Assembly (NCBI GenBank): GCA_958295845.1
Contig: OY282376.1
Coordinates: 1,625,022-1,689,021, forward strand
Length of the DNA: 64,000 bases
Direction: 5' to 3'
Source of the DNA: Caldilineaceae bacterium
Lineage (GTDB): Bacteria; Chloroflexota; Anaerolineae; Caldilineales; Caldilineaceae
Each line of letters begins with the position of its first letter. Positions within the stretch are counted from its first letter, which is position 1. This document shows, piece by piece, positions 5,277 to 48,887 of this stretch. The notes beneath the pieces are model-generated. The model was given only the letters and a program-made list of their open reading frames with translations, had not been told where the DNA came from and did not search any database. The position numbers and the translations under genes were made by a program.

Positions 5277-6608
5277 TCAGGCAAAAACCTCGGCGATTCG
5301 CTCCACGATCAGACTAACCCCTTCCTCCAATCCGATTTCACCCGTCACCCAGATCTGGTCCCAGATCGGGCCAAATGCCTCCGAGTTGACCTTCTCGTTT
5401 TCCTGGAAGGCAGGGTTCAGCCTCGTATGATCCATGATACGGGAGAAAGCAGCCACGTCGTAGCCTGCCTCCGCACCCATCGATTTCACGTCCCAGGCAT
5501 CACCTGCCACGCTGCGCCGTGCAGGTTGCAGGCCGACAATACTCAACGCCATGACTTCCTCTGCCTCCGGCGAAGCCAGGAACTCCACCAGCTGGACAGA
5601 CGCGTCAGGCTCCTGTGTCTTCTTTGCTATGACATAGCCATTGCAAAAGGTAAGGCCTGCCTTGACACCATCGCGCGCCACAGGTAGATCTACGAAGTCC
5701 CACGCAAAGTCGTTCTCACGAATGTAGTTGGTGACTGTCCAACTGTGAGATTCCGTGAACGCCACCTTTCCACTTGAAAAGACGTTATACCAGCCCATCT
5801 CAGGAATCGAGCCGGCAACTGGCGATACAGGATAATCTCCGTAAATCTGGTCGTGGTTGAACTTGAGACCCTCCAGAGCCTTCTCGCTGTCCAGCAGGCA
5901 TTGCGTACCGAGGATCTCGCTGTTCATCCACTCGCCGCCGTTCATCCAGACGTAGTGCTGAATAAACGACTGGGCCACATAGTTTCCCCACTGGACGATT
6001 TTCCCACTGTCATCCCGCACGGTCGTTGCCTCGTATGCCGCCTGGTAGTCGTCCCAGGTCCAGGTTCCATCGGGATACTCGACCCCTGCCCCGTCCAGGA
6101 TATCCTTGTTATAGGCCATCACCACCGTAGACACATACTTGGGGATTCCGAACAACTGTCCATCCAGGAGATGGGCCTTGACCAGCGCCGGATAGAAGTC
6201 CTCCAGGTATTCACTGTCGAAATAGTCGTCCAACTGCAGCAACTGGCCCTTCTGCAACAGGTTATAAGTGATGTTGTCCCAAACGAACATGACATCGGGG
6301 GAATCGCCTGCCACCGCCTGCGTGTACAGCTTGTCGGCGTAGTCGGGCGACTCGGCGTTTTCGAAAGTCACGCTAATGCCGGGATTCCCTTCCTCGAAAC
6401 TGGGTATGATTTCGTCCGTCCAGAATGCGATGCCCTCCGGACCGACCCAACTGCCTTCTGCCAGTCTGATCTCGATAGGCTCCTCGGCCATCGACGCGCC
6501 CGAATCTGCAGGGACGGCCGCCGGGGCCACGCAGGCCGCAAGCAGCCCTCCGCCTGCTGTCGTTACCGACAAGCGCAGAAAATCGCGTCGGTTTATTCTG
6601 TTAGCCAT
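5277..6608 (-). CDS. Sugar-binding lipoprotein, family 1 (Tat-exported), copy 1
   Basis: 443 residues from the ATG at 6608, which has AGAAGGA five bases upstream; the seven extra codons to 6629 have no such site. A twin-arginine signal (NRRDFLRLS, residues 6-14) runs into a lipobox LLAAC with Cys26, so it is exported folded and lipidated at the membrane surface. The rest is a family 1 solute-binding fold (WTDEIIPSFEEGNPGI, TWTWDDYQAAYEATT, GKVAFTESHSW). It is the extracellular receptor for the two permeases encoded directly downstream. Most residues are identical to the protein at 7237-8568, including the whole signal region layout, so the two genes are a recent tandem duplication. Confidence 0.94.
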   Translation of the reverse strand: MANRINRRDFLRLSVTTAGGGLLAACVAPAAVPADSGASMAEEPIEIRLAEGSWVGPEGIAFWTDEIIPSFEEGNPGISVTFENAESPDYADKLYTQAVAGDSPDVMFVWDNITYNLLQKGQLLQLDDYFDSEYLEDFYPALVKAHLLDGQLFGIPKYVSTVVMAYNKDILDGAGVEYPDGTWTWDDYQAAYEATTVRDDSGKIVQWGNYVAQSFIQHYVWMNGGEWMNSEILGTQCLLDSEKALEGLKFNHDQIYGDYPVSPVAGSIPEMGWYNVFSSGKVAFTESHSWTVTNYIRENDFAWDFVDLPVARDGVKAGLTFCNGYVIAKKTQEPDASVQLVEFLASPEAEEVMALSIVGLQPARRSVAGDAWDVKSMGAEAGYDVAAFSRIMDHTRLNPAFQENEKVNSEAFGPIWDQIWVTGEIGLEEGVSLIVERIAEVFA

Positions 6609-6747
6609 GTTTCCTTCTGATTCACACATAGGAATGTTTCTTGGCGGTTTCTTTGCAATTCGAAACTACTCAGCCACAACTGATTCGCAACCCTGAATGA
6701 GGCGAGCGAAGGGGCTCTCTCAACTCTCAACTCTTTTATGGGCGGTC

Positions 6748-7236: not shown

Positions 7237-8568
7237 CTAGGCGAAAATCTCGTCAATACGCTGCACGATCAGATTTACGCCCTCTTCCAGGCCGAGTTCA
7301 TTCGTTATCCAGATCTGGTCCCAGATCGGGCTGAAGACCTCTGAGTTCACCTTCTCATTTTCCTGGAAGGCCGGGTCGAGCCGGGCATCATCCATAATGC
7401 GGGAGAACGCTGCCACATCGTAGCCGGCCTGCGCCCCCATCGAATCTACGTCCCAGGCCTCCCCTGCCACACTGCGTCGCGTCGGCTGCAGCCCCACAAT
7501 GCTGAGCGCCATCGCTTCCTGCGCTTCAGGCCCAGTGAGGAACCGTACCATCGCCACCGCCGCGTCAGGCTCCTGAGTCGCCCTGGCGACGCCATAGCCG
7601 TCGGCAAAGGTCAAGCCGGCCTTCCCACCATCCGGCGAAACCGGCAGATCGGTGAAGTCCCAATTGAAGTCGTTTTCCCGCACATAGTTCGTAACTGTCC
7701 AACTGTGGGACTCGGCAAAAGCGACCTTCCCCGTCGAGAAGATATTGTGCCAGCCGACTTCTGGAACTGTACCCGCAATCGGAGCGACCGGGTTGTCGCC
7801 GTAAATCAAATCGTAGTTGTATCTGAGGGCTGCGATGGCCTCCTCTCCGTCCAGAAGGCACTTCGTCCCGAAGAGGGGAGCGTTCATCCACTCGCCTCCG
7901 TTCATCCACACGTAATGCTCCATGTACTGCTGTGCTACGTATCTGCCCCACTGGACAATCTCGCCGTCGTCATTGCGTTCGGTCGTTGCCTCGTATGCGA
8001 TCAGATAATCGTCCCACGTCCACGTCCCATCAGGATATTCGACACCTGCCTCGTCCAGAATATCCTTGTTATAGGCCATCGCCACCGTGGATACATACTT
8101 GGGCATACCGAACAGCTTCCCATCCAGCAAATGGGCATCCAGTTTGGCTGGATAGAAATCCTCCAGGTCCTCACTGTCGAAGTAATCGTCCAACTGGAGG
8201 AACTGCCCCTTCTGCATTAGGTTATAATTCACACCGCCCCAAACGAACATGACATCAGGGGCGTCGCCCGCAACCGACTGCGTATACAGTTTGTCGGCAT
8301 AGTCGGGCGACTCGGCGTTTTCGAACGTCACGCTGATGCCTGGATGCCCCTCCTCGAAAGCGGGAATAATTTCGTCGGTCCAAAATGCGATCCCTTCGGG
8401 ACCGACCCAACTTCCCTCAGCCAGTCTGATCTCGATCGGCTCTTCGGCCATCGAGTCCCCCGAGTCGCTCGGGGCTGCCGCCGGTGCCACGCAGGCCGCG
8501 AGCAGTCCGGTGCCGGCCGTGGTTGCCGAAAGGCGCAGAAAATCGCGTCGATTCATTCGCTTCGTCAT
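7237..8568 (-). CDS. Sugar-binding lipoprotein, family 1 (Tat-exported), copy 2
   Basis: 443 residues, the same length as the protein at 5277-6608. The start at 8568 is supported by AGGAGG seven bases upstream. The Tat motif NRRDFLRLS (6-14) and lipobox LLAAC (Cys26) are identical to copy 1. Differences are concentrated in surface and possible ligand-contact segments (for example WGGVNYNLMQKG against WDNITYNLLQKG), so ligand range may have shifted. No permease pair lies directly beside it; it probably feeds the permeases encoded downstream of copy 1. The ROK kinase gene ends 126 bases upstream, so it may be expressed from the same leftward transcript. Confidence 0.94.
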   Translation of the reverse strand: MTKRMNRRDFLRLSATTAGTGLLAACVAPAAAPSDSGDSMAEEPIEIRLAEGSWVGPEGIAFWTDEIIPAFEEGHPGISVTFENAESPDYADKLYTQSVAGDAPDVMFVWGGVNYNLMQKGQFLQLDDYFDSEDLEDFYPAKLDAHLLDGKLFGMPKYVSTVAMAYNKDILDEAGVEYPDGTWTWDDYLIAYEATTERNDDGEIVQWGRYVAQQYMEHYVWMNGGEWMNAPLFGTKCLLDGEEAIAALRYNYDLIYGDNPVAPIAGTVPEVGWHNIFSTGKVAFAESHSWTVTNYVRENDFNWDFTDLPVSPDGGKAGLTFADGYGVARATQEPDAAVAMVRFLTGPEAQEAMALSIVGLQPTRRSVAGEAWDVDSMGAQAGYDVAAFSRIMDDARLDPAFQENEKVNSEVFSPIWDQIWITNELGLEEGVNLIVQRIDEIFA

Positions 8569-34385: not shown

Positions 34386-35456
34386 TTAGATGACAATGCG
34401 CCGCCCGCTGCGGCTCGATTCGTATGCCGCGTCCACCACCTTGGCGACCCGAATTGCGTCCTCGCCCGTCGCCAGCGGTTCCCCGTAGCCCTGACAGGCA
34501 CTGATAAAGGTGCGCAGGAACGTCTCGCCGGAGGCGCCGCCGTAAGCCGGTGAACTGCCGAATGTGTAGTCAAATGTACGCCGCGGCGCCGATGCCCAGC
34601 TTGGATGCGTGCTCTCTACATTGATGCTACTCGGCGTGCCATTGGAGCTGTATGTTATCCGTCCCAGGCGGCCGTTGACGCTGACATAGGTGTCATAGCC
34701 GGCGGCGTTATGATAGCCGCCTCCGCTCATCGCCAGCATGTACCCTGCGTGAAATGTGCCGACCGCACCCGAAGCGAATCCCAACGTGACCGCAGCCACA
34801 TCCTCCACGTCGATATCCTCGCCGCTGCGCGTGGCGATCTGCGCGGCCACCGACACGATCTCATCCTGCGTGATGTTCAGGATCTGGTCGATATAATGGC
34901 AGCCCAGCCAGGACAAAATCCCGCCGCCGGCCTTATCCTGGTTGAAGAGCCAGTGACTGGGATCACGGACCTGTACCTGAGTCGTCACCATCCGCATTTC
35001 GACGGAAACAAGCTCACCTATCAGCCCCTGCTCGACGATTCGCCTGGCATCCTGGATTGGGGGCAAGGATCGGTTCTGGTAGAAAACACCGAGCTTGCGC
35101 CGCTCGCGCCGAGCCACCGCCGCCACCTCCGCGCTTTCGACCGCAGTCTTGCCAATTGGCTTGTCCGTGATCAAGTGCTTGCCCGCTTCCAAAGCGCGGA
35201 TAAAAATCGGCGGCCCTAAATCGTTGCGCAACGCGCCGACAACAAACAGGATATCCTCCTGGCCCAATACCGACGCCAGATCGGTTGTCGTCCCGCGCAC
35301 CTTTTCGCCCTGGCTTGCAACCGTCGCCTGCAACAGGTCTTCGTCCGGGTCCCACAGGGTGATGCTGGCTACCTCCGATACCGCCTGGAGCGTGCGCAAG
35401 TGGGCCAGTGAGTGTGGATGGGATAGGCCTAAGAGGGCTGCGTGTACTTCTTTCAT
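34386..35456 (-). CDS. Gfo/Idh/MocA family oxidoreductase, atypical nucleotide loop
   Basis: 356 residues from the ATG at 35456, with GGAGG nine bases upstream. The first strand ends in LLGLSHPHSLAHL where most members have GxGxxG, so the dinucleotide loop is altered. The nicotinamide motif is TDKPIGKT in place of EKP. The C-terminal half contains LSWLGCHYIDQIL, the histidine-bearing segment of the active site. Sequence resemblance to the tandem group at 35.7 kb is low. It shares a 278-base divergent promoter region with that group and precedes the GH63-like gene, suggesting a glucoside oxidation or hydrolysis pair. Confidence 0.9.
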   Translation of the reverse strand: MKEVHAALLGLSHPHSLAHLRTLQAVSEVASITLWDPDEDLLQATVASQGEKVRGTTTDLASVLGQEDILFVVGALRNDLGPPIFIRALEAGKHLITDKPIGKTAVESAEVAAVARRERRKLGVFYQNRSLPPIQDARRIVEQGLIGELVSVEMRMVTTQVQVRDPSHWLFNQDKAGGGILSWLGCHYIDQILNITQDEIVSVAAQIATRSGEDIDVEDVAAVTLGFASGAVGTFHAGYMLAMSGGGYHNAAGYDTYVSVNGRLGRITYSSNGTPSSINVESTHPSWASAPRRTFDYTFGSSPAYGGASGETFLRTFISACQGYGEPLATGEDAIRVAKVVDAAYESSRSGRRIVI

Positions 35457-35733
35457 CTTGACTGGCCTCCACTGAATGGTGCTTGACCGGTTCTCTGGAG
35501 CGCCACCGCTTTGACGCCTTCCTGCCTTCCAGGCATGCAAGTGATCCACCCCGGCCAAGGATGGGTGTGAATCCAATCCTGAAATGACGTCGACGGCGGC
35601 ATCAAACGCGGTAGCGTAAATCGGAAGAATACGCTAGCATATCCTAAAGGTGATTCTACCGCCTGTCAACCTGCTACGAATCCCAACGACCGCTTCCAAA
35701 ACTCGCGAAAAGAAATATCCCTGGAGGGATTTC

Positions 35734-36840
35734 ATGTACAGAGCAGCAGTTATCGGTCTGGGACGAATGGGCAGCACTTTCGATGATGAAATACAGCAGG
35801 GCGGCTCGATCTTTCTGCCCTACTGCCATGCGCCCAGCTACGTGGCTTCGCCCCACACCGAGTTGGTCGCCGGCGCCGACCTCCATGCCGAGCAGGGCGC
35901 CATCTTCGCCAAACGCTGGGGCCTCTCTGAAGACCACATCTACGGCGACTATCGGGAGATGCTGGCCGCAGAACGGCCCGACATCGTCAGCATCTGCACC
36001 ACCGCACGCCACCGGGCCCCCATGATGCAGGACGCGATCGAGGCCGGCGTCAAGGCGATCTGGGCCGAAAAACCACTCACCTTGAGTCTTGCCGAAGCCG
36101 ACACAGTCATCGACCTCAGTACCCGCAAGGGCGTCGCCATCGCCGTCAACTGCTCGCGACGCCACAGCCCATTCTTGACCGAAGCTCGCCGCATGGCACA
36201 AACCGGGGAACTGGGCGAACTCCTCCAGATCACCGCCTACGCTGAGTGCCATCTCTCCCACAACGGCAGCCACGCCATCGACACCATGCGTTATCTTGTC
36301 GACGCCGATGTGGAATGGGTATTCGGCGAAATGGAGTCGGACGAAGAAGCGGCAGGTGAGGAAGACCTGAAAGGCAACGGCTACCTGGCTTTCGACAACG
36401 GAGTTCGGGGTTACATTCGTGCCATGCCGACCGGCATCGCGCCATGGGAATTCGATCTCATCGGCACCGAAGGACGCGTCCGTTCACTGGCAAACGGCAC
36501 CGATACCCAGTACTATCGCTGGGTCCCCGGCGGCCTGCGCGATGAGGGATTGCCTGCGCGGGCGCCTTTTCCCTTGCCTTTGAGCATTCAGGGCACGGGA
36601 CTCTCGGTCATCGCCGACCTCGTTAACGCCATAGAGACTGGATCGGACCCACGGTGCTCAGCCGAAGACGGCCGCCAGGCTCTTGAGGTCGCGGTCGCGC
36701 TACGTGAGTCGCACCGCCAGGGCGGCCTACGCGTCGACCTGCCCATCGCCGACCGATCTCTGCGCATTATGTCAGTCGAAATCGGCGGGGACGCCGTCCC
36801 CGCCCGTGTACGGCGGCTGCAACAAGAACCGGCGGCCTAG
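35734..36840 (+). CDS. Gfo/Idh/MocA oxidoreductase, tandem paralogue 1
   Basis: 368 residues from the ATG at 35734, GGAGGG upstream. Rossmann motif AVIGLGRMGSTFDDEI, nicotinamide-site motif AIWAEKPLTLSLAEAD, and active-site histidine segment NGSHAIDTMRYL. The C-terminus VEIGGDAVPARVRRLQQ is shared with the next two proteins. The family oxidises or epimerises sugar hydroxyls with NAD(P). It is the first of four head-to-tail genes, and the first three are close duplicates. The start lies 278 bases from the divergent gene at 35456, a likely promoter region. Confidence 0.93.
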   Translation: MYRAAVIGLGRMGSTFDDEIQQGGSIFLPYCHAPSYVASPHTELVAGADLHAEQGAIFAKRWGLSEDHIYGDYREMLAAERPDIVSICTTARHRAPMMQDAIEAGVKAIWAEKPLTLSLAEADTVIDLSTRKGVAIAVNCSRRHSPFLTEARRMAQTGELGELLQITAYAECHLSHNGSHAIDTMRYLVDADVEWVFGEMESDEEAAGEEDLKGNGYLAFDNGVRGYIRAMPTGIAPWEFDLIGTEGRVRSLANGTDTQYYRWVPGGLRDEGLPARAPFPLPLSIQGTGLSVIADLVNAIETGSDPRCSAEDGRQALEVAVALRESHRQGGLRVDLPIADRSLRIMSVEIGGDAVPARVRRLQQEPAA

Positions 36841-36882
36841 CAGGATACTGTCCGCCCAACGCATTACTTTGGAGATACAGGC

Positions 36883-37992
36883 ATGCCTGAAAAGAGTTTT
36901 CGAGCCGCCGTCATCGGCCTCGGGCGAATGGGCAGCACATTCGACGACGAAATAGAGCAGGGGGGACAGTTTTTCATGCCTTACTGTCATGCCCCCACCT
37001 ACGTGGCCTCACCCCATACCAATCTGGTCGCCGGCGCCGACCCCCACGCGGAGCAGGGCGAGATCTTCGCCGACCGCTGGGGCCTGGAAAGCGGGCAGAT
37101 ATACGCTGACTACCGCGAGATGCTGGAAGCGGAACGCCCCGACTTCGTGAGCCTCTGTACGACCGCACGTCACCGGGCCGCAATCATGATCAATGCCATC
37201 AACGCCGGTGTTAAGGCGATCTGGGCAGAGAAGCCGTTCACACTCAGCCTAACTGAGGCCGATGAAGTGCTCGATCTCTGCGACCGCAAGGGCGTAGCCA
37301 TCGCTGTCAACTGCTCCAGACGCTACAACGTATTCTTCTCCGAAGCGCGCCGCATGGTCGACGAGGGAGAGCTAGGCGACATCCTGCAGATTACCGCCTA
37401 CGCCCAGTGCAACCTCTCCCACAACGGCAGCCATGCCATCGATACCATGAACTATCTCGCCGGCGGCAATGTAGAATGGGCATTCGGCGAGATGGAGTCG
37501 GACGAAAAGGCGACCGCTGATGAAGACCTGATGGGCAACGGCTATTTGGCCTATGACAACGGCGTGCGGGGCTTTCTGCGCGGCACGCCGACAGGCGCCG
37601 CCCCGTGGGAATTCGACCTTATCGGCACAGAGGGACGGGTCCGTTTTCTGGCTCAGGGAATGGAAACGCAGTACTACCGCTGGGTGCCCGGTGGCCTGCG
37701 CGACCAGGGTCTGCCGGCCAGGGCGCCATTCCCACTGCCAACACAAATCCCGAGCATGGGCCTTACCGTGATCGAAGACCTCGTAGACTGCATCGAAACC
37801 GGCAGGCAGCCGCGCTGCTCGGGCAAAGATGGCCGCAAGGCACTGGAGATCGCTATCGCGCTGCGCGAGTCCCACCGCCAGGGCGGCCGGCGCATCGACC
37901 TGCCCCTGGCCGACCGCTCCCTGCGCATTCTGTCAGTCGAAATTGGCGGAGATGCAGTCCCCGCCCGTGTCCGCAGAATGCAACGCACCTAA
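36883..37992 (+). CDS. Gfo/Idh/MocA oxidoreductase, tandem paralogue 2
   Basis: 369 residues. It shares most residues with paralogues 1 and 3, including GLGRMGSTFDDEI, AIWAEKPFTLSLTEAD and HNGSHAIDTMNYL. It differs from paralogue 1 mainly in the C-terminal domain around residues 120-210 and 270-310, which forms part of the substrate pocket. It begins 42 bases after paralogue 1 (GGAG upstream) and was probably transcribed with it. Duplicates with altered pockets would be expected to act on related sugars or epimers. Confidence 0.93.
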   Translation: MPEKSFRAAVIGLGRMGSTFDDEIEQGGQFFMPYCHAPTYVASPHTNLVAGADPHAEQGEIFADRWGLESGQIYADYREMLEAERPDFVSLCTTARHRAAIMINAINAGVKAIWAEKPFTLSLTEADEVLDLCDRKGVAIAVNCSRRYNVFFSEARRMVDEGELGDILQITAYAQCNLSHNGSHAIDTMNYLAGGNVEWAFGEMESDEKATADEDLMGNGYLAYDNGVRGFLRGTPTGAAPWEFDLIGTEGRVRFLAQGMETQYYRWVPGGLRDQGLPARAPFPLPTQIPSMGLTVIEDLVDCIETGRQPRCSGKDGRKALEIAIALRESHRQGGRRIDLPLADRSLRILSVEIGGDAVPARVRRMQRT

Positions 37993-38232
37993 GTTGGCGC
38001 ATGGCATGCTGGAAGAGTGAACTGTCAAGCCCAAGGCTATGACTGATAGGTGAAAGTGACAGCCAGTCCTTCACAGCTTCAAAATTGGTGAAAGGGCATT
38101 CAGCATAAACGCTTACATCGACTATCTCTCTTTGACCACCTTCTATTCTTGCGATTACCGTAGTTAGGCAGCTTAATTCTGTCACGGCAACTGATTACGA
38201 ATCGCCGGCCGTTTCATCCAGGAGAAACAGCA

Positions 38233-39342
38233 ATGTCCGAAAGTACCTATCGCGCCGCCGTCATCGGTCTCGGGCGCATGGGCAGCACTTTCGACGATGA
38301 AATCAGGCAGGGCGGACAGTTCTTTATGCCCTACTGTCACGCCCCCACCTATGTGGCCTCCCCGCATACCGACCTGGTCGCCGGCGCCGACCCCCACGCC
38401 GAGCAGGGCGCGATCTTTGCCGACCGCTGGGGCCTTGAAGACAGCCAAATCTATGCCGACTACCGCGAAATGCTGGAGGCAGAGCGGCCCGATTTCGTTA
38501 GTATGTGCACCACCGCCCGCCACCGCGCCGCAATTATGATCGATGCCATCAACGCCGGGGTCAAGGCGATCTGGGCAGAGAAGCCTTTCACTCTCAGCCT
38601 TGCCGAAGCCGACGAAGTGATCGAGCTCGCTGCGCGCAAAGGCGTAGCCGTCGCCGTAAACTGCTCCCGCCGCTACAATGTATTCTTTACAGAAGCGCGC
38701 CGTATGGTAGAAGAAGGTGAGCTGGGCGAGCTATTGCAGATCACCGCCTACACACAATGCAACCTGTCCTCCAACGGCAGTCACGCCATCGACACCATGC
38801 GCTACCTGGTTGGCGGCGACGTGGAGTGGGTTTTCGGCGAGATGGAGTCGGACGAGAAGGCGGCCGGCGATGAAGACCTGATGGGCAACGGCTACATGGT
38901 GTTCGACAACGGAGTGCGCGGCTTCCTTCGCGGCACGGCTACCGGCGCCGCCCCATGGGAATTCGACCTGATCGGCACAGAGGGCCGCGTCCGTTCCCTG
39001 GCCCAGGGCATGGAAACCCAGTACTACCGCTGGGTCCCTGGAGGGCCGCGCGGCCGTAACCTGCCGGCGCGCGCACCATTCCCTCTGCCCACAAGCGTCC
39101 CCAGCATGGGCTTTGCCATCATCGAGGACCTTGTTCACTGTATAGACAGCGGAGAGCCGCCCCGTTGCTCTGATGTGGACGGACGCAAAGCGCTGGAGAT
39201 CGCGATCGCGTTGCGCGAGTCGCACCGCCAGGGCGGCCGTCGCGTAGACCTGCCGCTATCCGATCGCTCCCAGCGTATTCTGTCCTCCGAAATCGCTCAA
39301 GATGCCTTGCCCGCCCGCGTTCGCAGACTCAGTAGACAGTGA
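38233..39342 (+). CDS. Gfo/Idh/MocA oxidoreductase, tandem paralogue 3
   Basis: 369 residues, very close to paralogue 2 over the whole length (shared GGQFFMPYCHAPTYVASPHT, AIWAEKPFTLSLAEAD, NGSHAIDTMRYLVGGD). The start follows CAGGAGAAACAGC. A 240-base gap separates it from paralogue 2, much longer than the gap between 1 and 2; a weak TTGCGA/CTTAAT pair in it suggests a separate promoter. The last residues, SSEIAQDALPARVRRL, differ from the VEIGGDAVPARV ending of the first two. Confidence 0.93.
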   Translation: MSESTYRAAVIGLGRMGSTFDDEIRQGGQFFMPYCHAPTYVASPHTDLVAGADPHAEQGAIFADRWGLEDSQIYADYREMLEAERPDFVSMCTTARHRAAIMIDAINAGVKAIWAEKPFTLSLAEADEVIELAARKGVAVAVNCSRRYNVFFTEARRMVEEGELGELLQITAYTQCNLSSNGSHAIDTMRYLVGGDVEWVFGEMESDEKAAGDEDLMGNGYMVFDNGVRGFLRGTATGAAPWEFDLIGTEGRVRSLAQGMETQYYRWVPGGPRGRNLPARAPFPLPTSVPSMGFAIIEDLVHCIDSGEPPRCSDVDGRKALEIAIALRESHRQGGRRVDLPLSDRSQRILSSEIAQDALPARVRRLSRQ

Positions 39343-39403
39343 CCTGCAGTTCGTAACTTGATGCCGCTCACACCTAAAACCGTTGTCTTCTGGAGAAATT
39401 AAC

Positions 39404-40435
39404 ATGACCGACAAAATCTACCGCGTCGCCATAGTCGGACTGGGTCGAATGGGCAGCACAATCGACGACGAGTTCCCTGACAGGAGTCCCCCCTACTCGG
39501 TCGCGGCCTCATGCAAAGCCAGCGATCGCCTGCAGATTGTCGCCGGAGCCGACATCGATGCTGCCAAGCGGGCGGCCTTCTCAGAGCGATGGGGCGTCGA
39601 CGCGCTCTACGAGGACTACATAGAGATGATCCGCCAGGAAGATCCCGACATGGTTGCCGTCTGCACCCGCGGCCATCTGCACGCTGAGATGGCGACGCGG
39701 GCCGCCGAAGAGGGTGTCCGCCTGATCTTCTGCGAAAAGGCAATCGCCTGTTCCATGGAGGAGGCCGATGGGATCCTCAAGGCGGTCCAGGAAAACGGCT
39801 CCCTGTTCAACTCCGGAGTCCTGCGTCGCTTCAATCTGCGCTATCACCAGGCGCGTGACCTAATCAGAAATGGCGAGATCGGCGAGCCCAAGGCCGCTAT
39901 CCACTATGCCAGCACCAATCTTCTCCACGGCCACATCCATTCGATAGACACCCTCAGTTTCCTCTTGGACGACCCCGCAGTGGAGAGCATCTGGGGAGAG
40001 CTCAACACAATAGACCATCGTATCCCCGACAATCGCCTGGATGAGGATCCCTACGGGATCTTCCAGTTGACCTTTGCAAACGGCGTTGCCGCCACCAGCG
40101 TTCCAGCCGGCAATTGGGAATTCGAGGTTATGGGCGACGCCGGCAGCGTGCGCGTGTTTGACAATGGAATGGGGCTGCAACTTCGGAAAAACCTGGCTGG
40201 AAAGGCACGCATTGCCGCCGATGTTCCCGTCGAGCAGGTCGCTGAAAACAGTGCGACACAGTACTGCCTGGAAGACCTGGTTCTGGCACACGAAGAGGGC
40301 CGGCAAACTCTCGGACATGTCGAGGTCGCCCATCATTTGACCGAAGTCTGCTTGGCGCTGGCCGAGAGCCACCGTCAGGAAAGGCGCATCAGCTTGCCGC
40401 TCGAGAACCGTTCGCTCTACATCTTCCACCGCTGA
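39404..40435 (+). CDS. Gfo/Idh/MocA oxidoreductase, tandem paralogue 4 (divergent)
   Basis: 343 residues from the ATG at 39404 (GGAG upstream). It keeps the AIVGLGRMGSTIDDEF start of the tandem group but is shorter, and differs elsewhere: the nicotinamide motif is LIFCEKAIACSMEEAD, with alanine where the others have proline, and the active-site segment is LHGHIHSIDTLSFL. It is therefore an older duplicate with a changed cofactor and substrate site. It starts 62 bases after paralogue 3 and ends 73 bases before the PhyH gene. Confidence 0.92.
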   Translation: MTDKIYRVAIVGLGRMGSTIDDEFPDRSPPYSVAASCKASDRLQIVAGADIDAAKRAAFSERWGVDALYEDYIEMIRQEDPDMVAVCTRGHLHAEMATRAAEEGVRLIFCEKAIACSMEEADGILKAVQENGSLFNSGVLRRFNLRYHQARDLIRNGEIGEPKAAIHYASTNLLHGHIHSIDTLSFLLDDPAVESIWGELNTIDHRIPDNRLDEDPYGIFQLTFANGVAATSVPAGNWEFEVMGDAGSVRVFDNGMGLQLRKNLAGKARIAADVPVEQVAENSATQYCLEDLVLAHEEGRQTLGHVEVAHHLTEVCLALAESHRQERRISLPLENRSLYIFHR

Positions 40436-40507
40436 AGAATGTAGAGAGTAGAAGCTGGATTCGCTCAGCCCATGTAAGCACTATCTACTCAGATAGGGAG
40501 AATGACC

Positions 40508-41350
40508 ATGACAAAGGTGAAAGTCGACGATCGTGACTGGTCCAAACTGAGCTTCGGTCAACACGTCTATCAGCTTGAAGTAGAGGGTTACACCGTCGTC
40601 CCCGACCTCCTCTCAACAGAACACCTGGATCGTCTGCGAGCGCAGACAACTCAACTGGATACGTTCGGGGTGGACTATAGCGAAAAGCAGCAGGTGCGCC
40701 CGAAAGTCCATTTCGCGGGCGGAGAGGTCACGGACCTGATAGCGCATCCTCCTACGATCCAGTTTCTGGAACGGCTGTTTGGTGACGAGATCGTGTTCAT
40801 GTCCTACGCCTACGCCCGCTCAGAACCGGGTCATCCCGGCATCAGCCTTCACACCGATGGCCAGCCGTATGGGTCTAAAATATTCGGCTACGAGGGCAGC
40901 TGCCCTTGTATGGTCCGCGTGCTCTACTACCTCCAGGAACTGACGGAAGAGGTCTCTCCATTTCGCGTGATTCCTCGTTCTCATCTCGTCATGCACGCGC
41001 ACGGAAACCCCTACGTCCGCTATGAGTCCCACCCTGAAGAGGTCATGGTGACAGCCCCGGCCGGATCAGCTGTGCTCATCAACCATCGCGTCTTCCATGG
41101 AAACTTCCCCAATGTGGGGGACTACGCCCGCGAGCTCCTGGCAATCGCATACCGTCCGGCGTGGGCCGGACCGGTCGAAGAAGAGGTCGAGCAGTGGCCG
41201 GCTGAAGATGTGGCGAATCTGCCGCCAGAAGTCAAGAAATACTTCATCGACCGCAATGTCCGAAAATGGGAGTACGGCGGAGGCAACAAGCCCGCCAACA
41301 TGGCCAGCGAAGCCCCCGGCATCAACCCCAGCCGCTGGGAGCTGGCATAG
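40508..41350 (+). CDS. Phytanoyl-CoA dioxygenase (PhyH) family protein, second copy
   Basis: 280 residues from the ATG at 40508, whose GGGAG lies seven bases upstream; the ATG at 40502 is too close to it. Fe(II) ligands are His115 and Asp117 in LHTDGQ and His197 in RVFHGN; Arg208 is the expected 2-oxoglutarate ligand. Some other PhyH enzymes modify sugars or secondary metabolites; the substrate is unknown here. Position directly after four sugar oxidoreductases suggests hydroxylation of a related compound. The final ~40 residues (YGGGNKPANMASEAPG) are polar and probably a flexible tail. Confidence 0.92.
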   Translation: MTKVKVDDRDWSKLSFGQHVYQLEVEGYTVVPDLLSTEHLDRLRAQTTQLDTFGVDYSEKQQVRPKVHFAGGEVTDLIAHPPTIQFLERLFGDEIVFMSYAYARSEPGHPGISLHTDGQPYGSKIFGYEGSCPCMVRVLYYLQELTEEVSPFRVIPRSHLVMHAHGNPYVRYESHPEEVMVTAPAGSAVLINHRVFHGNFPNVGDYARELLAIAYRPAWAGPVEEEVEQWPAEDVANLPPEVKKYFIDRNVRKWEYGGGNKPANMASEAPGINPSRWELA

Positions 41351-41426
41351 CGAAATCCGGCGAAACGGGCATATCCGTTCACAAGAATGCACTCCGTTCT
41401 TCATCTGCTTGGGAAAGGAGGGCCGG

Positions 41427-42059
41427 ATGCAGATTCCGGGCGAAACCGTAGAAGTTCCTGAAATCCCATGGCAACTAAACGTCGAACTGCCTGCACAGAG
41501 CAGCGCATTGATAGTCGTCGACATGCAGAACGATTTTGTCAAAGAAGGCGGCGCACTGGTCGTGCCTGACGCCGCCGCCACCCTCGACAGTCTGCAAACG
41601 CTCCTGGCCCGCGCCCGCCGCGCCGGCGTGCGCATCGCCTACACGCAGGACAGCCACTTCTCCGGCGATCCCGAATGGGAAATCTGGCCTCGCCACTGTG
41701 AAACCAACAGTTGGGGCTGGCAGATCGTTGAAGAGCTGGCCCCGCAACCGGAAGATCTGGTCTGCCAGAAAAGCCGCTACGACGGCTTCTATGGAACGTG
41801 GCTGGAGCACTTCCTGACCAATGTCTGGAAGGTGCGAAATCTCGTCATCGTCGGAACCGTATCCAGTATCTGCGTGCTCCACACGGCTGCTTCAGCCGGC
41901 CTGCGCTGGTTCTCCGTCGTCGTGCCTGCCGACTGCATTTCAGCCTTGACCGAGTTCGACCAGGCACTTACCCTCCGGCAGGTCTCCTGGCTCTATACCG
42001 GCAGCGTGACCAAGACAGCCGAGGCCATCTCTTTCAGCAACAGCGCAAATGACCAGTAA
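41427..42059 (+). CDS. Isochorismatase-family cysteine hydrolase
   Basis: 210 residues from the ATG at 41427, GGAGG upstream; the open frame to 41097 overlaps PhyH and is not real. The catalytic triad is Asp32 (VDMQNDF), Lys115 (QKSRYDGF) and Cys149 (SSICVLHTA). The family hydrolyses amides such as nicotinamide, biuret or ureido acids, or isochorismate. No nicotinamide or siderophore genes are near, so the substrate is unassigned. It ends the rightward sugar block; dinG starts 54 bases later. Confidence 0.92.
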   Translation: MQIPGETVEVPEIPWQLNVELPAQSSALIVVDMQNDFVKEGGALVVPDAAATLDSLQTLLARARRAGVRIAYTQDSHFSGDPEWEIWPRHCETNSWGWQIVEELAPQPEDLVCQKSRYDGFYGTWLEHFLTNVWKVRNLVIVGTVSSICVLHTAASAGLRWFSVVVPADCISALTEFDQALTLRQVSWLYTGSVTKTAEAISFSNSANDQ

Positions 42060-45140: not shown

Positions 45141-46347
45141 GGAGACCGCAGGCGTGCGGCACACGCAAGCCAAAGCCCTGCACAAGGGCATCCGTCAGAG
45201 CACAGGACGCCTGCAAGTCGTCCTCGACGCCGGCCCCGCGATTCACCAGAGCGCCGGACTGGCGCGCTACACCGAGAGCCTTGCGTCTGCGCTGTGGCAA
45301 CACTGTCGCGATGCAATCGATCTCACCCTGTTCTACAACCGTCACAGCGGCCATCGACCCCCTGATTCCCTCGCCCCTATTCCCGCCCGCGCTCTGCCGT
45401 TGGCCCAATATCCCTGGCGGCTCGGTGTCCTTGCATGTCAGCTTTTGAGGACTCCGCTCGTAGACCGCAAACTCGGTTCCGATGGCATCTACCACGCCAC
45501 AGAGCATCTGCTGCCATGGACCACGCGGCCGTCGGTCATGACCGTCCACGACCTGATCTTCGAGCGCTACCCTGAGCACCACACTCTGGCAAACCGGACC
45601 TTTCTGCGCGTAGCGATGCCCTTGTTTGTGCGCCGTGCCGATGCTATCATTGCCGTAAGCAGCCACACGAAGCGGGATTTACTGGAACTGTACAGTACTT
45701 CTCCGCAAAAAATTCATGTAATTGAAGAAGGCATCGAAGAACGGTTCAGACCGGTCGAAGAAGAAGAGACTCGGCTCGCGATGGAGAGGCATTCTATCCG
45801 CAGGCCGTACCTGCTGATGGTCGGCACACTTGAGCCGCGCAAAAACCACGCCCTCGCCTTTGAGGCGCTTGCCCGGTTGAAGGCTGCGGGAGGGCGCCAC
45901 TGCCTTGTGGTCGTCGGTCGCCGCGGCTGGCTCTTCGACAGCGTCCAGAGTAACGTTGAACGGCTGCAGCTGTCCGACGACGTCATCTTCACCGGTCACG
46001 TTCCAGACGCAGACCTGCCAGCCCTATACAGCGGCGCCGACTGCCTCCTGATGCCCAGCCTCTATGAGGGTTTCGGTATCCCCGTGTTGGAAGCGATGGC
46101 GTGCGGAACGCCGGTGGTCTGCAGCAGTGCCAGCAGCCTTCCCGAAGTGGCCGGCACAGCAGCCCGCTACATCGAACCGATGACCGGCGAAGGCTTGGCA
46201 GAGGCACTCCGCCCCGTGTTATCGAATCCACAAACGTCTGAGCAGATGCGTACAGAGGGACTGCGTAGAGCAGACCGCTTCGGCTGGCGTGAGGCGGCAA
46301 GACAAACCGTAGATGTCTACAAAGCAACCGCAGGAAGGCATCCTTGA
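45133..46347 (+). CDS. Family 4 glycosyltransferase (GT4-A)
   Basis: 404 residues from the ATG at 45133, which overlaps the dinG stop by eight bases; ATGs at 45115 and 45124 are alternatives. GT-B fold: an N-terminal acceptor domain with SAGLARYTESLASAL, and a donor domain with MVGTLEPRKNHALAFEAL and the sugar-nucleotide motif YEGFGIPVLEAMACGTPVV. The motif pattern matches mannosyl- or rhamnosyltransferases of surface polysaccharide pathways. It resembles the last enzyme of the cluster (56282) more than its immediate neighbours. The next gene overlaps it by four bases. Confidence 0.9.
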   Translation: MSEETAGVRHTQAKALHKGIRQSTGRLQVVLDAGPAIHQSAGLARYTESLASALWQHCRDAIDLTLFYNRHSGHRPPDSLAPIPARALPLAQYPWRLGVLACQLLRTPLVDRKLGSDGIYHATEHLLPWTTRPSVMTVHDLIFERYPEHHTLANRTFLRVAMPLFVRRADAIIAVSSHTKRDLLELYSTSPQKIHVIEEGIEERFRPVEEEETRLAMERHSIRRPYLLMVGTLEPRKNHALAFEALARLKAAGGRHCLVVVGRRGWLFDSVQSNVERLQLSDDVIFTGHVPDADLPALYSGADCLLMPSLYEGFGIPVLEAMACGTPVVCSSASSLPEVAGTAARYIEPMTGEGLAEALRPVLSNPQTSEQMRTEGLRRADRFGWREAARQTVDVYKATAGRHP

Positions 46348-47570
46348 AGCCGCTGCGTATCTGCCTGGTGAGCAAAGAGTATCCACCGGAAGGCAGAGGC
46401 GGCATCGCCAAATATGTACATCTTCTGGCCCATGGTCTTGCCGAAGAAGGACACGATGTCACAGTAATCGCCGGACCGGCCGGGAAAGAAGGAAGGACTC
46501 GCCCGTCTCCCTCCTCTTCACACGCACCGCAGTTGTTCCGAGTGGCGCACCGTCGGCTTCCACTGCCGCCCCCAATCCGCCATAAAGCGAGAGGAATCTG
46601 GAATCTACTCGAACGAAGCTGGGCCGTAGACCGCGAAATCGCACGCCTGGAACGATCCCAAGGGCCTTTCGACGTAGTTGAAATGCCGAACTGGGGCGCC
46701 GAAGGTCTCTGCTACGCTTTTCGTCAACGCGCCCCGTTAGTGATCCGCCTTTCTACGCCGCTTGCCCAGGTAAGTTTCCTAAAGGAAGGTCGGTCTGACA
46801 GATTGGGACTTCGCCTGGCCTGTTTTCTGGAGGCGCTTCCTGCGCGGCGTGCAGCCTGTATCATAGCCAACAGCAAATTTATCGCCCAGTACTGCAGCGA
46901 GCTCTACCTGATGCCTAATGTTGAACCAGTTGTGATTCCGCATGGCATCCCTGTGCCGGAATCGCTGCCAGCGGCAAGCATAACAAGAGAGGAATCGGTA
47001 ACTGTTCTCTTCGTAGGTCGATTGGAGCAACGAAAGGGGATAGACCGTTTGCTTCATGCCATTCCGCAAGTGGTTAGGGAGGCTCCTTGCTGCAGATTCG
47101 TCATCGCTGGCGACGACATCGGCGAAGCGCCGCAAGGAAAGTCCTATCGCGACTATTTCGAGAGTTTTGCTTCGCCAGAGGCCCGCAAGGCGACAGTTTT
47201 TTGTGGTCACGTTGGAGAGGAGACACTTTCTCAACTTTATGCGGATTGCGATGTATTTGTGGCGCCTTCTCTGTCAGAGTCGTTTGGCCTGACTTATCTC
47301 GAAGCCATGGCCCACGCCAAGCCGGTCATCGCCTTTCGTACGGGTGGCGTACCCGAGGTTGTCGTCAACGAAGAGACTGGGATTCTGGCCAAAATGGAAG
47401 ACCCAAATGGATTGGCTCGAGCTCTGATAGAGTTGGCTGTAAATGAAGGAAAGCGACAAGAGATTGGAAAGCGCGGCTACCAGCGGGCTAGGGCGAAGTT
47501 TTCTATACGGCGTATGGTTGAAGAAACTGTTTTCTGTTTTCGCAATCTATCGGAAAATCTAGAAGGATGA
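46344..47570 (+). CDS. Family 4 glycosyltransferase (GT4-B)
   Basis: 408 residues from a TTG at 46344 with GGAAGG seven bases upstream; no ATG gives the conserved LRICLVSKEYPPEGRGG start. A four-base overlap with the previous gene couples them. Donor domain: VLFVGRLEQRKGIDRLL and LSESFGLTYLEAMAHAKPV. It is a close paralogue of the next gene: both share PLVIRLSTP, a KSYRDYF-type segment and the SLSESFGL block. It transfers a sugar from a nucleotide donor to a growing glycan, probably at the inner membrane surface. Confidence 0.92.
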   Translation: MKPLRICLVSKEYPPEGRGGIAKYVHLLAHGLAEEGHDVTVIAGPAGKEGRTRPSPSSSHAPQLFRVAHRRLPLPPPIRHKARGIWNLLERSWAVDREIARLERSQGPFDVVEMPNWGAEGLCYAFRQRAPLVIRLSTPLAQVSFLKEGRSDRLGLRLACFLEALPARRAACIIANSKFIAQYCSELYLMPNVEPVVIPHGIPVPESLPAASITREESVTVLFVGRLEQRKGIDRLLHAIPQVVREAPCCRFVIAGDDIGEAPQGKSYRDYFESFASPEARKATVFCGHVGEETLSQLYADCDVFVAPSLSESFGLTYLEAMAHAKPVIAFRTGGVPEVVVNEETGILAKMEDPNGLARALIELAVNEGKRQEIGKRGYQRARAKFSIRRMVEETVFCFRNLSENLEG

Positions 47571-47573
47571 CCA

Positions 47574-48887
47574 ATGCGTATCTGCCTTGTCAGCTATGAC
47601 TACCCTCCGGCAAGTGTAGGCGGAGTTGCCACCTATACACGCCATCTAGCCAACGGGCTTGCCGCCGCAGGGCATGACGTGACCGTAATTTCCGACCGAA
47701 CCCAGTTCTCGGAAAAGATGACATCCGCCTCTGGAGAAACCTTGGCTTGGGAACACAATGATGGGGCGATGCAACCCGATGATAGAGATGTCCTTGCGTC
47801 CAATGAGCTGCCCGCTGTTTCCCCCTACCCGGCACACGTCCACAAGATCCCTCTCTTGGGGATTATGAAAGGCAAAGGGAGAATCATGAGGTCAGTACTA
47901 GATTGGAGCAGAAGTGTAGACAGAACCATCGCCCAGCTAGAGGAAACTCACGGACGATTTGACGTGGTCGAAATGCCTAGCGGCGGCGGGGCAGGTCCAG
48001 AGGCGTTCTTTTACAGCCTCCATCCCCGCGGGCCGCTCGTTATCCGTCTGTCCACACCCATGAACCTGGCCAATAGCTTGAAAACTCGTCCTTCTGCAAA
48101 CTATGGATGGCGCCTGCAGAGCTACTTGGAAGTCCTGGCGGTCCGGCGGGCGCATTGTCTCATCACGCATAGCGCATATAACGCACATGTCTGTGCCGAA
48201 CTCTATGATCTACCATTGCAATCCATGCAGGTTGTCCATCTCGGTATCCCGCTTTCCCCTTGTCCGACAAGGCCGACATATTGCACTGACAAGGCAATTC
48301 GTGTCCTTTTCGTCGGTCGCCTTCAGAAGCGTAAGGGAATCCACTGTCTCCTGCAGGCAATTCCGCTGGTTACACAGCTAATGCCGAATGTACGTTTCGA
48401 GATTGCCGGGGAGGATATTTCAGACGCGCCACACCACAAGACTTATCGCGACTACTTCGAAGGATTTGCCCCAGCGCAAGCGATTGATGCAACTACATTT
48501 CATGGCAGGGTTGACGAAGACAAGCTGGCCCGCCTTTACGCGGAAGCTGATATCGTCGCCGCTCCATCGCTTTCGGAGTCTTTCGGTCTGATATATGTCG
48601 AGGCCATGGCCTCGGCTAAGCCTGTTATCGCTTTCAACGCAGGGGCCGCGCCCGAAGTCGTAAGGCACAATAACACGGGCATTCTTGTCGAAACCGATAA
48701 CATTCCTGAGTTGGCGGATGCCATTGTCAAGCTGGCCGGAAACGCGGCTCTTCGCCGCGAGATGGGGGAGCGCGGGTATCAACGAGCCCGCACTAAATTC
48801 TCCATCGAAGCCATGGTTAACGAGACAATATGTTGCTACCATAGAGTGATCGAGAACTTCAGCTCTACCGCTAACGGGCATCACTGA
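47574..48887 (+). CDS. Family 4 glycosyltransferase (GT4-C), paralogue of GT4-B
   Basis: 437 residues, starting four bases after the GT4-B stop with AAGGATG upstream. MRICLVSYDYPPASVGGVATY is followed by the same acceptor-domain layout as GT4-B. Donor domain: VLFVGRLQKRKGIHCLL and LSESFGLIYVEAMASAKPV. It is ~29 residues longer than GT4-B through an insert near residues 60-90. A tandem duplication with divergence is the simplest origin; the pair probably adds related residues to the same chain. Confidence 0.92.
   Translation: MRICLVSYDYPPASVGGVATYTRHLANGLAAAGHDVTVISDRTQFSEKMTSASGETLAWEHNDGAMQPDDRDVLASNELPAVSPYPAHVHKIPLLGIMKGKGRIMRSVLDWSRSVDRTIAQLEETHGRFDVVEMPSGGGAGPEAFFYSLHPRGPLVIRLSTPMNLANSLKTRPSANYGWRLQSYLEVLAVRRAHCLITHSAYNAHVCAELYDLPLQSMQVVHLGIPLSPCPTRPTYCTDKAIRVLFVGRLQKRKGIHCLLQAIPLVTQLMPNVRFEIAGEDISDAPHHKTYRDYFEGFAPAQAIDATTFHGRVDEDKLARLYAEADIVAAPSLSESFGLIYVEAMASAKPVIAFNAGAAPEVVRHNNTGILVETDNIPELADAIVKLAGNAALRREMGERGYQRARTKFSIEAMVNETICCYHRVIENFSSTANGHH

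Follow-up and report, generated by a model that had tools for sequence, protein, structure and literature searches.

Here we report that three of four adjacent genes encoding putative oxidoreductases of the Gfo/Idh/MocA superfamily, designated A, B and C, arose in place through a tandem triplication particular to one genus of the Caldilineaceae (Chloroflexota), and that the fourth, D, is an older neighbour of a different line of descent. The reading that we regard as quite probable is that the triplicated gene encoded an NAD(P)-dependent dehydrogenase, a cofactor that we infer, and that the series grew beside the pre-existing gene D; A and B would keep a Lys-His-His (K-H-H) catalytic set, and C would be a diverged enzyme after loss of the first of these histidines, with purifying selection maintaining all the genes. 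The window analysed is a stretch of 64,000 nucleotides of contig OY282376.1, and gene identities, phylogeny, synteny, selection and the residue change were computed from the sequences.

Organization of the array and superfamily membership

The four genes are all intact and lie head to tail on the + strand with 42, 240 and 61 bases between them; a GGAG-type sequence is found upstream of all four starts (of GGAGG type before the ATG of gene A). The head-to-tail arrangement put forward in the preliminary description was confirmed, as was its statement that the first three proteins are nearly collinear, with 368-369 residues. The features are as follows, positions being those of the window:

34386-35462, - strand: divergent fifth Gfo/Idh/MocA gene forming the left border of the array (Pfam and left-flank synteny)
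35734-36840, + strand: gene A, 368 amino acids, H176-x3-H180 by its own residue numbers and H180/H184 by those of B, EKP
36883-37992, + strand: gene B, 369 amino acids, EKP, H180-x3-H184
38233-39342, + strand: gene C, 369 amino acids, EKP, S180-x3-H184, the first His being gone
38770-38772, + strand: codon TCC for Ser180 of gene C, which is CAC or CAT (His) in the A and B orthologues
39404-40435, + strand: gene D, 343 amino acids, EKA, H175-x3-H179, an old neighbour inherited separately
40502-41350, + strand: PhyH-family dioxygenase gene, next after D (Pfam PF05721)
41424-42059, + strand: isochorismatase-family hydrolase gene (Pfam PF00857)

The PhyH gene lies 3' of D in the genus loci carrying the right flank, and the isochorismatase-family gene shows a weak likeness to RutB and biuret amidohydrolase, far below the cut-off. 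A to D are probably co-transcribed with these two genes, D being a separate predicted dehydrogenase within the same operon-like run.

PF01408 and the C-terminal Gfo/Idh/MocA domain were found above the Pfam cut-offs in all four proteins, and the lysine motif, with its Lys present in all four, is EKP in A-C but EKA in D; by domains and by motif they are members of the Gfo/Idh/MocA superfamily. The AlphaFold2 model of B (pLDDT 86.4, pTM 0.87) and the structure model of D (pLDDT 93.1, pTM 0.90) are confident predictions, and B is predicted to adopt the overall fold of the superfamily, its model matching 50 entries of this fold at Z of about 30-33 among the matches listed. Pairwise comparison, which the preliminary description had proposed as a check, gave about 75-84% amino-acid identity among A, B and C (76.4% for A and B, 75.6% for A and C, 83.7% for B and C) and about 35-37% between D and each of them (35.2-37.4%). 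When B was used as query in its own genome, C (E 5e-217) and A (3e-195) were recovered, which is a likeness far above chance. D is no nearer to A-C than another Gfo/Idh gene of the genome holding the window (genome G000), G000:C1:1604787, situated 55 kb off: the latter scores 185 bits and D scores 178.5 bits.

Triplication of A, B and C within the genus

An A/B/C-type gene lies directly 5' of D in all 17 genomes of the genus. It is present in one copy in G004, as a tandem pair in G008, G009 and G013, and in three tandem copies in 11 of the 17 genomes. The loci have both flanks in common, the left one comprising a class IV aminotransferase, a methyltransferase, an FAH-like hydrolase, a GH63-like gene (for which G004 gave no match) and the divergent Gfo/Idh gene, and the right one comprising the PhyH and isochorismatase-like genes, a DinG-like helicase and glycosyltransferases; the DinG, methyltransferase and glycosyltransferase names were assigned by reading the open reading frames. 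In the remaining genomes, G011 and G012, the two copies of the A-C family are on different contigs, where the copy standing by itself has retained the left flank and the copy accompanied by D the right one (L085 and L086 against L081 and L082); this split of the flanks indicates that a rearrangement disrupted the array, with its breakpoint inside it.

Phylogenetic trees were inferred from 106 and 38 of the 150 rows collected, which were picked by hand so as to thin both the outside homologues and the named duplicates of the same genomes. The A, B and C copies of the genus form one clade (support 100/99) from which all outside homologues are excluded, a clade also supported at 100 in the 106-row tree. 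Within it, the A rows (100/98) are separate from the B and C rows (100/98), the A clade comprising 14 rows with a support of 99 in the 106-row tree. The branching of B, C and the copies from two-copy genomes is weak (88/88 or less) and one tree groups the second copy of G009 with C (88/88), so that a loss from three copies to two is possible for G008, G009 and G013. Using the tree of D as a stand-in for the species order, G004 is the first to split (83 in the 106-row tree and 99/90 in the other), an order that fits a progression from one to two to three copies. Synonymous divergence between the copies of the window is about 0.9-1.1, which means that the duplications are old, and the positions of A, B and C have been preserved across 11 species. 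The stepwise duplication in one place proposed in the preliminary description is thus borne out for A, B and C, by their common clade (100/99) and the series of one, two and three copies at one syntenic site, and fails for D.

D is an older and separately inherited neighbour

D orthologues with 80-95% identity are found in the 16 other genomes of the genus, directly 3' of an A-C gene, and orthologues with 62-66% identity are found in nine genomes from other genera, all nine without an A-C family gene at E <= 1e-60. In the eight other-genus loci for which upstream DNA is available, a different Gfo/Idh gene, here termed X, lies 5' of D; it immediately adjoins D in seven and is a little further off in G045, and its identity to C is 35-38% where measured. 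The X-like gene of the window's own genome is G000:C1:1604787, already mentioned.

The idea that a single tandem duplication series in the genus gave rise to all four genes, D being its oldest step, draws on the orientation, adjacency and superfamily that D shares with A-C and on their identity of 35-37%, yet we consider it extremely improbable. Forcing the genus A-C and D copies into one clade lowered the log-likelihood by 315 and was rejected by the AU test (p of about 1e-82), and the orthologues of D in the nine other-genus genomes occur without A-C, beside a different Gfo/Idh gene. What remains is a deep shared ancestry of D and A-C inside the superfamily. The phylogenetic outcome that the preliminary description had named as contradicting it, copies grouping with separate outside homologues, was therefore found for D and not for A-C. 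The same description saw in D a change from EKP to EKA; EKA is carried by all 25 D rows and by 8 of 8 X rows, which argues that D inherited the motif, EKA being ancestral to D rather than a recent change. As a marker uniting D with X the motif was discarded, as rows that group beside D in the tree carry EKP (L172) and EKG (L164_D32, L169_D33).

Replacement of a conserved histidine in the third copy

In a profile alignment of B with 3CEA, K117 corresponds to the EKP lysine, H180 falls on the Asp of a D-x3-H motif and H184 falls on its His. Position 180 is occupied by His in all A (14/14) and B (9/9) copies, in the position-2 copies of G010 and G015 (2/2), in the second copies of G008, G009 and G013 (3/3), in the copies of G011 and G012 (4/4), in those of G004 (1/1) and G035 (1/1), and in 59 of 59 rows from outside phyla among the matches listed; altogether His180 is found in 93 of the 97 family rows other than C, with the outside-phyla rows being among the matches listed. 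The third position of the array in the 11 three-copy genomes never carries it (0/11), having Ser in six and Ala in five (C 9/9 and the position-3 copies of G010 and G015 2/2). The codons are TCC for Ser and GCC for Ala, where the A and B orthologues have CAC or CAT, and the simplest account of these residues would be one change from His to Ser followed by a change from Ser to Ala. Lys117 and His184 are retained in C.

The four exceptions among the other family rows are L058-L061, single-copy A-C family genes of genus g16 with Ser180, apparently a separate loss of His. Since a single gene carries Ser180 in g16, Ser may suit ordinary function and is no proof of a dead enzyme.

For the Paracoccus scyllo-inositol dehydrogenase, the catalytic triad is given as K106, D191 and H195, the Ala mutant of each being described as inactive (data not shown in that paper), and a flexible loop is placed at the entrance of the site, ahead of D191 (PMC5969746). 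By analogy with that enzyme, position 180 may be catalytic in the A-C subfamily, and the absence from the subfamily of about 19 residues that 3CEA has just ahead of the aligned motif would leave a more open pocket. Most likely, A and B would retain the family chemistry and C would be altered in catalysis or substrate: with its acid-base residue changed, we propose that its reaction, its rate or its substrate has changed too.

Selection and gene conversion

The dN/dS analysis across the copies, also proposed beforehand, gave medians of 0.07-0.09 among orthologues (A 0.090 over 91 pairs, B 0.078 over 36 and C 0.074 over 36), and the three genes are each under strong purifying selection. Gene conversion, to which the copies had been suggested to be prone, was not seen between position-2 and position-3 copies when within-genome and cross-genome nucleotide identities were compared: same-genome copies are no more alike (0.766-0.819) than copies from different genomes (means of 0.776-0.805), and windows of 60 codons showed an excess of identity of at most 0.06. 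The copies of G010 and those of G015 are about 0.01 more alike within the genome, a difference too small for a claim. We therefore reject gene conversion as a visible force, old or short tracts being possible.

Relatives of the array and clues to the substrate

The encoded proteins resemble inositol dehydrogenases (IolG, myo- and scyllo-inositol dehydrogenase; 3CEA, 5YAP) in the two-domain fold, the lysine of the EKP motif and the H-x2-D end of the motif. The best sequence match in the PDB is 3CEA (E 2.8e-22), and the top-scoring NCBIfam model for the four proteins is IolG (TIGR04380), against which however they score 81.0 (A), 86.1 (B), 86.5 (C) and 92.0 bits (D), the cut-off being 355. In place of the K-D-H triad of IolG (PMC5969746), the set is K-H-H in A, B and D and K-S-H in C. 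Among known structures, the B model aligned best with levoglucosan dehydrogenase (6A3G) and 1,5-anhydro-D-fructose reductase (4KOA), at Z 33 and 19-23% identity, with an rmsd of 2.5-2.7 across 306-313 residues; many family structures tie within 1 Z, so that no substrate is implied for B. Attempts to name a substrate were abandoned, as the NCBIfam models all score far below cut-off and the structural matches are tied; the neighbouring PhyH, isochorismatase-like, GH63-like and FAH-like genes form no recognisable pathway, and the literature searched yielded no paper on this array. In general terms, we infer that A-C would oxidize or reduce a polyol, a sugar or a related hydroxy compound.

Homologues in metagenome-assembled genomes (MAGs) of Poribacteria, Latescibacterota and Gemmatimonadota are near full-length with 60-67% identity and carry EKP and H-x3-H in 59 of 59 cases, among the matches listed; each fetched locus holds a single family copy, against three in the window. 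The flanking genes of the window gave no match above 70 bits in these loci, among the matches listed. In 22 of the 59, the next gene after the homologue is PhyH-like, and the PhyH of the window matched none of those 22 above 70 bits, again among the matches listed.

This distribution bears on the origin of the founder. A transfer of the A-C founder from another phylum, settling 5' of D, would complement the triplication, and we regard the chances for and against such an event as evenly balanced. It is made plausible by sequence comparison: the A-C family is present at E <= 1e-60 in 17 of 17 genomes of the genus, in 5 of the 29 searched from other Caldilineaceae and in none of the 54 searched from the remainder of the class; its relatives with 60-67% identity belong, among the matches listed, to the three phyla named; and the founder occupies the slot that X fills in other Caldilineaceae, where all eight loci of other genera with upstream DNA have X 5' of D. 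On the other hand, the deep branches joining the genus clade, Latescibacterota and other Caldilineaceae are weakly resolved, loss in other lineages may have occurred, and the donation may have run either way. As they are drawn from the best 80 matches to two peptide patterns, the outside homologues are not a random sample.

Gfo/Idh genes in the rest of the genome

The genome of the window (5.40 Mb, a single contig) holds 122 PF01408 matches, 121 of them above the cut-off, and 52 of the 122 lie in 20 clusters when genes up to 3.5 kb apart are counted as neighbours. The identities of tandem pairs were obtained for 19 of the 20 clusters, the one at 1052772/1055610 being left out, and among these 19 only this array has three close tandem copies. 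With so many tandem Gfo/Idh clusters in the genome, the array itself is fairly ordinary. With PF01408 matches counted up to a ceiling of 60 scored candidates per genome, all 17 genomes of the genus have at least 60; the number runs from 13 to at least 60 among 20 others of the family, and from 0 to at least 60 among 24 further genomes of the class. Three other close Gfo/Idh pairs were noted in the genome, at G000:C1:2866508-2868706 (93%), 5253320-5256201 (82%) and 554177-556539 (80%), and a listed pair at 66.8% was dropped, being the opposite-strand shadow of a real pair. A Gfo/Idh match at G000:C1:1033727-1034821 (L040) contains one in-frame TGA, which may be a frame break, a gene border or a sequence error. 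Within the window, tandem solute-binding-protein-like genes at 5277-6629 and 7237-8568 (both on the - strand; 78% identity over 443 residues) represent another local duplication, and adjacent glycosyltransferase-like genes lie at 46344-47570 and 47574-48887 (+ strand; 45% identity over 429 columns).

The labels of the MAGs stem, we presume, mostly from sponge metagenomes, and the outside rows SI037 and SI053 are presumably not from sponges; from these record labels, the genus would be sponge-associated. Caldilineae have been described as sponge symbionts of high abundance whose carbohydrate repertoire is expanded (PMC6306507).

Fate of the copies after duplication

Whether the three copies persist as more of the same enzyme or as different enzymes can be weighed from their divergence. 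The preliminary description had offered dosage as an option, that is, three copies with the same reaction kept for more enzyme. That A, B and C have all retained the EKP lysine, H184 and the domains of the fold, and that their dN/dS is low, would accord with this. Nevertheless, the copies differ by 16-24% and have group-specific fixed residues at 10 columns besides the start, homogenising conversion was not seen, and C is without the His present in 93 of 97 other family rows, among the matches listed. Given this divergence and the fixed change of C at the presumed catalytic position, dosage alone is unlikely, and the sequence data favour diversification of A, B and C.

Another way to accommodate the change, to which we assign only a small chance, would be that C has little or no catalytic activity and acts as a subunit of mixed oligomers with A or B. 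C is without the residue aligned to the catalytic Asp, whose Ala mutant is described as inactive in a homotetrameric relative (PMC5969746), and purifying selection acts on C; yet C still has Lys117 and His184, and the Ser180 genes of g16 are the sole family copies in their genomes at E <= 1e-60. A repurposed or inactive C that modulates A and B, in a role that a single change from His to Ser would have fixed in the common ancestor of the 11 species with three copies, with Ala arising later in five, is a doubtful proposition. The preferred reading is that A and B would be working dehydrogenases and C an enzyme of altered properties.

Apart from the fixed loss of His in C, the array is what one would expect of a paralogue cluster in a genome so rich in dehydrogenases. 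It carries the caution that adjacent genes of one superfamily may not be mutual duplicates, as D illustrates. In A-C, one genus offers a natural series running from one copy through two to three, and a position that is catalytic in relatives is altered only in the third, so that shared against new function would be testable with three proteins and one residue.
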